64,000 nt of DNA from Chitinophaga pinensis (GTDB lineage: Bacteria; Bacteroidota; Bacteroidia; M30B66). The number at the start of each line of letters is the position of its first letter. The first letter of the stretch is position 1. The position numbers and the translations under genes are program-made. The stretch covers positions 1 through 64,000 of the forward strand of contig CAMCXT010000013.1 in assembly GCA_945883545.1 (NCBI GenBank), written 5' to 3'. The notes beneath the pieces were generated by a model. The model saw nothing but the letters and a program-made list of their open reading frames with translations. It did not search any database and had not been told where the DNA came from. Of this stretch, positions 61,084 through 64,000 are shown piece by piece.

Positions 61084-62370
61084 TTATTTTTTACCCACAA
61101 CGAGCTCAATAAGATCTTCTTCTTTAAGCCATTTGTTTGCAAGTTCACGAAGATCAGATGCTGTTGCTGAACGAATTGCTTCGGTGTAGCGGTCGTAATA
61201 GTTATCCTCGAGATGATATAAATACAAAGCCTTAAAGCGTTCGATACGTTCGAAAGGACCATCAAAACTCTTCAGTAATGTTCCTAGCAAGTAATTTTTC
61301 ACCAGGTCTAATTCTTCATCTGGAATTAATTCGTTGCGAAGGACCTCTAATTCGAAGTAAATTTCCTTCAAAGCATCAACGGTAACATCTGTGCCCACTT
61401 CGGTTGAAATATAGAACCAACCATCGTTTTCATATGCTACAACTCCAGCACCGATTCCGTAAGTATAGCCTTTGTCTTCGCGGATATTGCTCATTAATCG
61501 TGATCCAAAATATCCACCCAAAATGGTGGTGAGAATTTTCATTCCAAAATAATCAGGATGGCGTCGATCGAACATTCTACGGCCAATGCGAATTGCCGAT
61601 TGAATGGCATCATCTTTTTCGATGAAATGCACTCTTTCTTGGCTTGCAATGGGCGTTAATTCTGAATTCGAACTAAAAAATGAAGGTTCAGAAATTTGCA
61701 CCTTTCCTAAAATGTGTTCTGTTGATACTAAAACAGATTGATCAACAAATCCGCTAAACATGATGAACGATTTGTTGAGTTGATAATGCACTTTGCGGAA
61801 TTCGACCAATTCGTTAAGTTGAACATTTTGGTAAGTCTGTTCATCGAATGAAGCACCATACGGAGATCCTTTAAACACAAGTTCTTGGAAGGCTTTTCCT
61901 GCCACAAAAGATACCTTACCAAGATTGATGCGGTATTTTTGAATTCGGTTTGAAATCATAATCCTCCATTCGTTTTCAGGAAGATTGGCCTCTTGGATGA
62001 TTTCAAGAATTACAGGGAGCGTTTCGTCGAAATAACGCTTGAGTGTGTACAGCGTTATGGATGCAAAATCTTTGTCGTGATCTAGTTCTAGAAATGCTCC
62101 ATAATTGTCGATGGCATCAGCTATTTCAGCAGCAGAATGCTTTGATGTTCCTTCTTGCATCATGGCAGAAGTGAACGATGGAACTAATGGATTTCCATGC
62201 TGTGCAGAGCCTGCATAAAAAACGAATTCAGCTCTGATAACTTCTTGTGAGCCCATGTTGAGCACCCAAATTGGCAAACCATTCGAAAGTGTGACTTTCT
62301 CTGGTGCTGAATATTGCACTCCTTCAATAGCTACAGCTATCGGAGCCATTGTTCTATCGGGCTGCATCAT
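61084..62370 (-). CDS. M16 family peptidase-like protein lacking the zinc motif
   Basis: 428 residues. It has the two-domain M16 layout: VTLSNGLPIWVLNMGS at the start, and the C-terminal-domain DKGYTYGIGAGVVAY and FDGPFERIERFKALYLY. The HxxEH zinc motif is replaced by AMMQEGTSKH, so it cannot bind zinc in the normal way. In bacterial and mitochondrial M16 heterodimers one subunit is active and its partner contributes binding residues; this protein fits the partner. ATG 62370 overlaps the upstream stop as ATGA, so it is coupled to the active gene. Longer in-frame starts (62400) are less likely. Cytoplasmic or periplasmic location is uncertain; no signal peptide. Confidence 0.9.
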   Translation of the reverse strand: MMQPDRTMAPIAVAIEGVQYSAPEKVTLSNGLPIWVLNMGSQEVIRAEFVFYAGSAQHGNPLVPSFTSAMMQEGTSKHSAAEIADAIDNYGAFLELDHDKDFASITLYTLKRYFDETLPVILEIIQEANLPENEWRIMISNRIQKYRINLGKVSFVAGKAFQELVFKGSPYGASFDEQTYQNVQLNELVEFRKVHYQLNKSFIMFSGFVDQSVLVSTEHILGKVQISEPSFFSSNSELTPIASQERVHFIEKDDAIQSAIRIGRRMFDRRHPDYFGMKILTTILGGYFGSRLMSNIREDKGYTYGIGAGVVAYENDGWFYISTEVGTDVTVDALKEIYFELEVLRNELIPDEELDLVKNYLLGTLLKSFDGPFERIERFKALYLYHLEDNYYDRYTEAIRSATASDLRELANKWLKEEDLIELVVGKK

Positions 62371-63605
62371 GGTTTCTTTTTGTAATAAAGTGTTGAACAA
62401 TTCTCTTGGCGCAAGATGGTTTTGGCTGCTAGATGGATAGACTCAGAAGTAACGGCTAGAATTTTATCAATTTCAGAGTTTACCAATGCCGCATCTCCCA
62501 TGAGTTCTGCAAATGCTAGATTCATGGCTTTGTTGAGCACACCCATTTCTCCGAAAACATGCGACGATTCTGACTTGTTTTTAACTTTCGAAAGTTCGGA
62601 TTCGGGAATGCCTTGTTCGATGATCTTTGAAATTTCTTGCTGAATGGCTTCATCGGCCTGTTCGCAGTTGTAGCCTTCTTTGATTCGACCAGAAACTACA
62701 AACAAACCTGGATCGTAATTGCCTGTAACGAAAGCATTGATTTCACTAAACATTTCCGAACCTTTTACCAATGATTGATACAGTCGAGAAGAAGTTCCGC
62801 GGCCGAGTATATCCGACAATAAATCCTGGCTGTAGTAATCGTTGTGGTTTCTTCCAACCATATGATAGACCTTGTGAATGGCATCGGAAGGAACTTCACG
62901 TTCAACGCTAAGGTGTCTTGGTGCTAATTGAACAGGTTCGGTTGGTAGATTTCGAGGTTGTTTTGTGCCTGAAGGAATAGGTTTAAACCATTTTTCGGCG
63001 AGTTGTTTCACCTGTTCGGTTTTGATGTTTCCAGCAACGACTAGAATGGCATTCGACGGATTGTAAAAACGATTGAAGAATGCACGAACGTCTTGCATTT
63101 GGGCATCAGAAATATGGCTAATTTCCTTTCCGATGGTTGCCCATTGATATGGATGAACTTGGTAAGCCAATGGACGAATAAGCAACCATTCATCACCATA
63201 AGGCTGGTTGAGATAGCGTTGTTTAAATTCTTCGATCACCACATTGCGTTGTACTTCTAGGCTTTTCTCAGAAAATGCAAGACTAAGCATTCGGTCTGAT
63301 TCGAGCCAAAAGCCTGTTTCGAGATTTTCGGCGGGCAATGTGAGGTAATAATTGGTGATATCGTTGTTGGTGAAGGCATTGTTTTCGCCTCCAACTTCTT
63401 GCAATGGAGTATCGTAATTCGGAATATTGACTGAACCTCCGAACATCAAGTGTTCAAACAAATGGGCGAATCCGGTTTGATTGGGATGTTCGTCGCGAGC
63501 ACCTACATCGTACAAAATATTGATGCAGGCCAAAGGTGTGGAAGCATCTTCATGAACAATGACTTTTAGTCCGTTGTTGAGCGTAAATCTTTCGAATGAA
63601 ATCAT
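62367..63605 (-). CDS. M16 family zinc peptidase (active subunit)
   Basis: 412 residues. N-terminal FTLNNGLKVIVHEDAST, then the inverted zinc motif HLFEHLMFGG (His48, Glu51, His52), and the third ligand expected in the LEVQRNVVIEEFKQR helix. The C-terminal half (residues ~200-412) is the second M16 domain. It resembles the processing-peptidase/pitrilysin group that degrades or trims peptides. ATG 63605 is the start; an in-frame TTG at 63614 adds three residues. It overlaps the inactive partner by 4 bases, so the pair is probably made in equal amounts as a heterodimer. No signal peptide seen. Confidence 0.93.
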   Translation of the reverse strand: MISFERFTLNNGLKVIVHEDASTPLACINILYDVGARDEHPNQTGFAHLFEHLMFGGSVNIPNYDTPLQEVGGENNAFTNNDITNYYLTLPAENLETGFWLESDRMLSLAFSEKSLEVQRNVVIEEFKQRYLNQPYGDEWLLIRPLAYQVHPYQWATIGKEISHISDAQMQDVRAFFNRFYNPSNAILVVAGNIKTEQVKQLAEKWFKPIPSGTKQPRNLPTEPVQLAPRHLSVEREVPSDAIHKVYHMVGRNHNDYYSQDLLSDILGRGTSSRLYQSLVKGSEMFSEINAFVTGNYDPGLFVVSGRIKEGYNCEQADEAIQQEISKIIEQGIPESELSKVKNKSESSHVFGEMGVLNKAMNLAFAELMGDAALVNSEIDKILAVTSESIHLAAKTILRQENCSTLYYKKKP

Positions 63606-63967
63606 GCGACGCAAGGTAGATTAGAAATGCAAATGAAAATTTTGAAGGGTATTGAAATTCCTCACAATTGCACTTGAATAAATATTGCGGCACAAAACTT
63701 CCGGCAGTGGTTGAGCCGGATATCCTGCACATCCCGAAGGGTGGGCAGATAAGAGGCGAAAACACGACCCTGCCTTAGAAAATGTTCAGATAAATCTTAA
63801 ATGATGGAGGCAGGGAGCCGGCAAAAAAATCAACTCTTTGTAAAACACCTATAGCGTCGAGACTAGCCATGAACTGAGCTGAAATTGATTGATAGCATTT
63901 GGTTGATGGATCACATGATTTGGAATTAATCTTACCTTTCGATCCTTAAAATCGTGTGCTAAGTTTT
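63606..63967. other. Divergent intergenic region at the right edge
   Basis: 362 bases without a plausible coding frame. It holds a GC-rich hairpin-rich part (63690-63830, described separately) and an AT-rich remainder. No exact TAnnTTTG with a -33 TTTG is present on the plus strand; TACCTTTC at 63933-63940 is the nearest match before the partial gene. Confidence 0.6.
63690..63830 (+). ncRNA. Candidate structured RNA (leader or small RNA)
   Basis: GC content rises sharply relative to the flanks and several helices are possible. CCGGC (63701-63705) pairs with GCCGG (63715-63719). CTGC and CATCC (63725-63734) pair with GGGTG and GCAG (63739-63748) around a CGAA loop. CCCTGCC (63768-63774) pairs with GGCAGGG (63809-63815). 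One pair is G-U on the plus strand but would be A-C on the minus strand, weakly favouring plus. No known riboswitch or RNA family is identified; a 6S-like RNA or a leader of the gene at 63968 are possibilities. Confidence 0.3.
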
Positions 63968-64000
63968 ATGAAAGAATTGATTGAAAAAGTTTGGGAGAAC
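63968..64000 (+). CDS. N-terminal fragment of a gene running off the window
   Basis: ATG at 63968 opens a frame of 11 residues (MKELIEKVWEN) to the window end. The start resembles tetrahydrodipicolinate N-succinyltransferase (DapD) of Bacteroidota, but eleven residues do not settle it. It is divergent from the M16 pair. Confidence 0.4.
   Translation, partial: MKELIEKVWEN

Follow-up and report, generated by a model that had tools for sequence, protein, structure and literature searches.

Flavo-1 (RF01705) has stood without a function since 2010. In the accessible part of its description it is listed as an RNA ("y") and not as cis-regulatory ("n") (Weinberg 2010, PMC2864571), the accessible part of a review also lists it without a function (PMC9029176), and the available sections of an RNA-seq study of F. 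psychrophilum describe matches lying "indistinctly" sense or antisense, and thus indifferent to transcript strand, with many outside transcripts (PMC9723704). A literature search, thin in subscription journals and preprints, found no statement of Flavo-1 mobility in the accessible texts, and the MITE and REP papers that it returned concern, in their accessible parts, other elements. MITEs, among them the Correia elements of Neisseria, are short, noncoding, dispersed, and intergenic; REP/BIME sequences associated with RAYTs are imperfect palindromes that lie between genes and form inverted pairs; and 6S-Flavo (RF01685) is a hairpin with internal loops.

The locus studied here lies in a stretch of 64,000 nucleotides from Chitinophaga pinensis (contig CAMCXT010000013.1), referred to below as the window. 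Its hairpin-rich island belongs to a structured element whose copies are scattered through intergenic DNA. As the original prediction had it, this copy is located between divergent genes, namely, an M16 peptidase gene (− strand) and the lysine synthesis gene dapD (+ strand). The element is a divergent relative of Flavo-1 in a three-way-junction form. Our preferred reading (probability, about 0.72) is that it is a non-autonomous, mobile, folded element, homologous to Flavo-1 and acting at the DNA level, with the fold of its + strand under selection. The data extend Flavo-1 to a tailed three-way junction, show that orthologous sites gain and lose copies, and reveal, in one genome (G381), 8-bp duplications and inverted repeats around a Flavo-1-type core. 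The features are as follows.

62367..63614, − strand: M16 peptidase gene, a neighbor outside the element (open reading frame list, family match)
63701..63821, + strand: whole structured element, divergent Flavo-1 type (fold, R2 match, covariation)
63701..63705, + strand: 5' strand of P1, CCGGC, pairing with 63817-63821
63707..63765, + strand: P2, an imperfect hairpin arm and the part modeled by Rfam Flavo-1 (fold, Flavo-1 overlap, covariation), made up of GTG/CAC, a G.A switch, TT/AA, a tandem G.A loop, GCC/GGC, TATC/GATA, TGC/GCA, and CATCC/GGGTG
63725-63748, + strand: P2 tip, CTGC-CATCC/GGGTG-GCAG around CGAA (sequence, fold)
63768..63774, + strand: 5' strand of P3, CCCTGCC, pairing with 63809-63815
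63775..63808, + strand: P3 loop, 34 bases, not conserved (the G002 orthologue matches it at 15 of 33 aligned bases)
63809..63815, + strand: 3' strand of P3, GGCAGGG (sequence, fold, covariation)
63817..63821, + strand: 3' strand of P1, GCCGG (sequence, fold, covariation)
63822..63826, + strand: tail CAAAA, where other copies have a CCAAA tail (alignment, tail columns)
63968..64000, + strand: start of dapD, which runs past the window end, outside the element (neighbor-gene comparison)

The predicted fold of positions 63701-63821 (+) is a three-way junction in which P1 is the closing helix, P2 a long imperfect arm, and P3 a stem. The + strand has a folding energy of −46.7 kcal/mol (z score, −3.40; 1 of 200 dinucleotide shuffles was as good), compared with a z score of −1.24 for the − strand. 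The three helices predicted originally (CCGGC/GCCGG, CTGC-CATCC/GGGTG-GCAG, and CCCTGCC/GGCAGGG) are all present in the sequence and in the fold. The accompanying claim of a GC-rich stretch stands relative to the intergenic flanks, with a GC content of 0.50 at 63700-63799 versus 0.34 at 63600-63699 and 0.37 at 63850-63949; the surrounding coding DNA is only slightly poorer (0.36 to 0.47). Rfam returned no family at threshold over the 64-kb window and no plausible one over 63550-64000 at E values up to 10. A promoter and terminator scan near the window copy found nothing, its promoter model being a sigma-70 one unsuited to Bacteroidota, and a Bacteroidota promoter box was not found near the tail by eye. 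On the − strand, 61084-63614 holds two adjoining open reading frames; the nearer is the M16 peptidase gene, and the farther (61084-62400) resembles, by eye, a second one.

Relation to Flavo-1 and conservation of the fold

A nucleotide search of 100 genomes found the element in three: the window's own genome (G000), a congener (G002) that also carries it between M16 and dapD, and a confamilial genome (G005) that carries it elsewhere. The letters of P1 differ among these relatives yet pair (CCGGC/GCCGG versus GCGTG/CACGC). These three copies, none of which reached the Flavo-1 cut-off, were used to build R1, a covariance model of 67 positions, which gave matches in 15 of the 395 genomes of the class, several of them with many copies, and at L007, L014, and L011 these matches coincided with places above the Rfam gathering cut-off for Flavo-1 (42 bits). 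The window copy itself lies below that cut-off, with no Flavo-1 match in the window; in the own-genome search its place was absent from the list, and none of the five sub-threshold Flavo-1 places fell at the window site. Through such intermediates, the window element is homologous to Flavo-1 in the P2 core with its internal loops.

The two have their P2 core in common, including the internal loops and where these lie. The 76 positions of Rfam Flavo-1 cover the P2 arm only, whereas the window element adds a 5-bp P1, the P3 stem, and a CCCAAA-like tail. The flanks of other copies likewise show P1, a CCCAAA tail, and P3, whose loop varies freely in both size and sequence. A longer model of 95 positions, R2, scored the window copy at 71.2 bits (E value, 2.4e-15) and gave 94 copies, of which 91 rows were distinct. 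By hand count, R2 matches overlapped 13 of the 17 above-threshold Flavo-1 places in G314 and 3 of 27 in G197; G158 had none above threshold, and all 7 of its weak ones overlapped. Classical Flavo-1 copies, 15 of which were listed, read TAGCC...GAAAWAGCT with a TCAAA or CCTAAA tail, corresponding to a short P1 without P3; those of G197 mostly have AGC/GCT and, unlike the window element, GAAAWA in place of P3, with a TCAAA/CCTAAA tail.

The pairing is maintained across divergent copies. In a first alignment of 32 copies, for which 7 of 39 candidate rows had been excluded beforehand and the P1 3' site had been chosen partly by complementarity, 86.6% of cells were paired, compared with 68.3% after shuffling and 34 to 44% in slid versions. 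In the alignment of the 94 copies, which was fitted to the model, the corresponding values were 86.7% and 67.9%, with a covariation score of 0.406 versus 0.111, and both sides changed in 20 of the 23 pairs. All five P1 pairs covaried, with 99.1% of cells paired, and P3 (helix 4) had 88.3% paired. When P1 was anchored on the tail alone, which dropped 31 of the 94 rows because the tail rule missed them or columns were gapped, all five pairs formed in 51 of 63 copies (mean, 4.41 versus 3.50 shuffled). Covariation in relatives, the lack of which had been named beforehand as a refutation, thus strongly supports the fold. Each of the three helices is kept through compensatory changes, and the prediction of an unannotated structured element is borne out.

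The nonstandard pair of P2 was A.G in 70 copies, G.A in 21, A.A in 2, and gapped in 1 (n = 94), so that A.G or G.A occurred in 91 of 94 copies, compared with a mean of 59.5 after shuffling; the adjoining G.A was kept in 92. Read on the opposite strand, these would be C.U pairs. The natural reading of the alignments is that selection acts on the folded + strand.

Constraint is also seen at a single site. The orthologous dapD copies in G000 and G002 have 4 differences within the 67-base core, and these make up two compensated pairs, a 4/4 pattern reached by 12 of 400,000 random draws for a structure drawn with the window fold in view; the P3 loop is identical at 15 of 33 positions and the upstream 60 bases at 34 of 60. 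This compensatory evolution of an old copy exceeds that of a dead mobile element, which argues that movement is not the whole story, and the in situ preservation points to some copies having a secondary function in cis. At the pyruvate kinase site the differences between L022 and L024 are, by eye, uncompensated, so in situ constraint is not universal.

Filled sites, empty sites, and terminal repeats

Joined queries made from neighbor-gene fragments of 10 of the 22 own-genome sites were run in six relatives, and at four sites (dapD, pyruvate kinase, HtpG, and MBL-ABC) the element was clearly absent from relatives; the results for a further five were unclear, one-sided, or without adjacency of the fragments. 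Between M16 and dapD, G000 and G002 have a long gap, compared with 71 nt in G003 and G004, and by parsimony the insertion predates the split of G000 from G002 and postdates that from G003 and G004. G000 and G002 also carry the element in the pyruvate kinase-M42 gap, just past the stop codon of the kinase; this gap is at most 16 nt in G003, G004, G006, and G008. The HtpG and ABC/MBL sites lack the element in G003, G004, and G006. At the L130 site the element is present in G000, G002, G003, and G004 with differing P2 tips, and G001 has no gap. For the genus of G153, 20 sites were fetched and 2,058 of 5,600 bases compared, and three sites were informative: a G153 copy is absent from G304, a G260 copy is absent from G304, G283, and G153, and one intergenic site (L188 and L223) carries the element in opposite orientations in G153 and G236, through either inversion or independent insertion. 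The element has been mobile in its history.

In G381, nine copies are alike far beyond the core and end in 25-base imperfect inverted repeats. The repeat pattern had 64 matches in G381, none in the reversed control, and none in G281, and 16 paired units were readable from the match list. The flanking 8-mers of 14 whole units agreed at 8 of 8 positions in 6 units, at 7 of 8 in 7, and at 5 of 8 in 1 (mean, 7.29 of 8 versus 2.79 shuffled); a flank width of 8 gave an identity of 0.911, with all other widths at or below 0.53. The inverted repeats and 8-bp duplications imply that the core travels there in a transposon-like unit, presumably moved by a DDE-type transposase acting in trans. Since many unpaired repeats lie at contig ends in G381, a full-length transposon may be hidden there.

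These units resemble MITEs in their terminal inverted repeats and 8-bp target duplications. Elsewhere the likeness to MITEs is that of a short, noncoding, dispersed, intergenic sequence: outside G381, the tail or its vicinity forms the end of the unit, and neither terminal repeats nor duplications accompany it. The surroundings of the window copy and the Foetidibacter copies showed no terminal repeats, and neither terminal repeats nor duplications were found in the window's own genus, where the window site is too diverged for duplications to be read. A shared flanking word of at least 8 occurred in 2 of 65 Foetidibacter cases, compared with 2.3 after shuffling (no excess), and in 9 of 123 in other genomes, compared with 5.15 after shuffling (shuffled maximum, 9; no clear excess). 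The core of the element also covaries, unlike a terminal repeat read by a transposase. No mobilizer gene was found, which counts against the mobile-element reading.

The fold of the copy inserted between the M16 peptidase gene and dapD has been maintained since its arrival. Under the preferred reading of a mobile folded element, selection would see the folded + strand, as single-stranded DNA in movement or as RNA after transcription, more than its letters. Some copies may have gained a secondary cis role, e.g., as a hairpin serving divergent genes as an end or spacer. A wider proposal, which we advance tentatively and hold to be possible rather than probable, is that Flavo-1 as a whole, rather than being a small RNA family, forms the folded core shared by a very large mobile superfamily of Bacteroidota, moved as structured single-stranded nucleic acid by an unrecognized recombinase and also captured by transposons with terminal repeats and 8-bp duplications, its fold being selected both for movement and for a host role at gene ends. 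The mobile reading turns a small RNA puzzle into a testable question on mobile folded elements and would account for many hairpins between genes for which annotation pipelines may mistakenly call an RNA.

Dispersal and genomic position

R2 found 22 copies in the window's own genome; three complete genomes had 13, 30, and 16, and when the best 9 candidates per genome were scored, the element was present in 166 of the 395 genomes of the class. In a pattern scan of named genomes, the loci among the matches listed were mostly from Bacteroidota and included dozens of copies in Foetidibacter luteolus as well as copies in Flavobacteriaceae, Tannerellaceae, Paludibacter, and metagenome-assembled genomes of Cytophagaceae and Spirochaetaceae. 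Also among them was Glaciecola amylolytica, whose chromosome (complete genome) carries a copy at L349 2188-2326 (56.3 bits). Glaciecola is a gammaproteobacterium, and this copy suggests horizontal transfer. Two queries of plasmids gave no match. The G197 copies showed no replication-strand bias (8 versus 8), so a model based on lagging-strand single-stranded DNA gains no help.

The copy number and the variety of neighbors bear on the original suggestions of a 6S-like RNA and a dapD leader. The shape recalls 6S RNA in that both have a hairpin with internal loops, and the window copy does lie upstream of dapD. However, 6S-Flavo had no match in the window (nor in the own genome, where the control gave none either), and the element is multicopy and has a junction; the lysine and cobalamin riboswitch families were also unmatched in the window. 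A dapD leader is unsupported as a family trait because copies sit beside unrelated genes, many with the downstream gene on the opposite strand, and dapD lacks the element in the congeneric G003 and G004. Both identities can be dismissed for practical purposes.

Among 159 copies with called genes on both sides, 8 overlapped an open reading frame of at least 100 amino acids and 151 were intergenic. The tail of the element faced an opposite-strand stop codon in 92 of these 151, within 15 nt in 31 of the 92, and the 5' end faced a same-strand stop in 66, within 15 nt in 7. Where the neighboring genes were in tandem, 60 copies ran against them and 34 along them. The excess of tails close to stop codons, along with the compensated substitutions at dapD, would fit a cis-acting RNA (a 3'-end stabilizer, processing site, or insulator) that acts beside genes and spreads as a by-product, but orientation and neighbors vary, to the point of opposite orientations at one site in two genomes, and relatives lack the element at the same genes; we regard this account as unlikely. 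An alternative in keeping with the Rfam type "sRNA" is a trans-acting or housekeeping small RNA gene amplified by duplication, for which the strong RNA-like fold, the conserved G.A pairs, the maintenance in situ at dapD, and the 2010 listing of Flavo-1 as an RNA all speak. We consider it improbable, given the 22 copies in one genome, the mostly antisense placement relative to co-directional neighbors, the strand-indifferent and often untranscribed matches reported for F. psychrophilum, and the lack of a promoter-like site near the window copy in the sigma-70 scan.

Mobilization as a REP-like element by a RAYT (Y1) transposase was rejected as highly improbable. A copy lay within about 1.5 kb at 6 of 30 Y1 loci, the hairpin has mismatches, and most genomes lack terminal repeats and duplications, as such a mechanism would have it. 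The Y1 genes inspected nevertheless sit among different short palindromes of their own, the window element is longer than REPs and has a three-way junction, and it occurs in G003, G004, G005, G017, and G392, which had no Y1 match (the G003 and G005 assemblies being incomplete).

Several arrangements of copies and neighbors were also recorded. At L043, L045, L046, and L056, Y1 genes lie among short palindromes such as TGACCCCGATGGGGTC, apparently their own REPs. All 10 inverted pairs of the element within 1,300 bp had their tails outward, and six more pairs were in tandem; at L026 1452-2466 (G006), an inverted pair with outward tails encloses an ORF6N-domain gene. Near two tandem copies, at L011 714-783, the DUF805 RNA motif (RF03081) was above threshold. 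In G050, P3 loops are wholly different between otherwise similar copies, and at L009, L032, and L021 the upstream flank pairs strongly with the copy's own P3 loop (−28.3 kcal/mol for L009), possibly as a pseudoknot or a duplicated inverted stretch. In a check for target guiding or a pseudoknot through the P3 loop, over the 21 of 94 copies with a loop of at least 18 and full flanks, pairing between the upstream flank and the loop had a mean of −13.82 versus −12.21 (standard deviation, 0.68) when crossed, a difference driven by the G050 copies. Finally, L017 1-463 (G123) and L070 1371-1690 hold tandem arrays with constant 30-bp spacers, in which some units have the P2 tip deleted.
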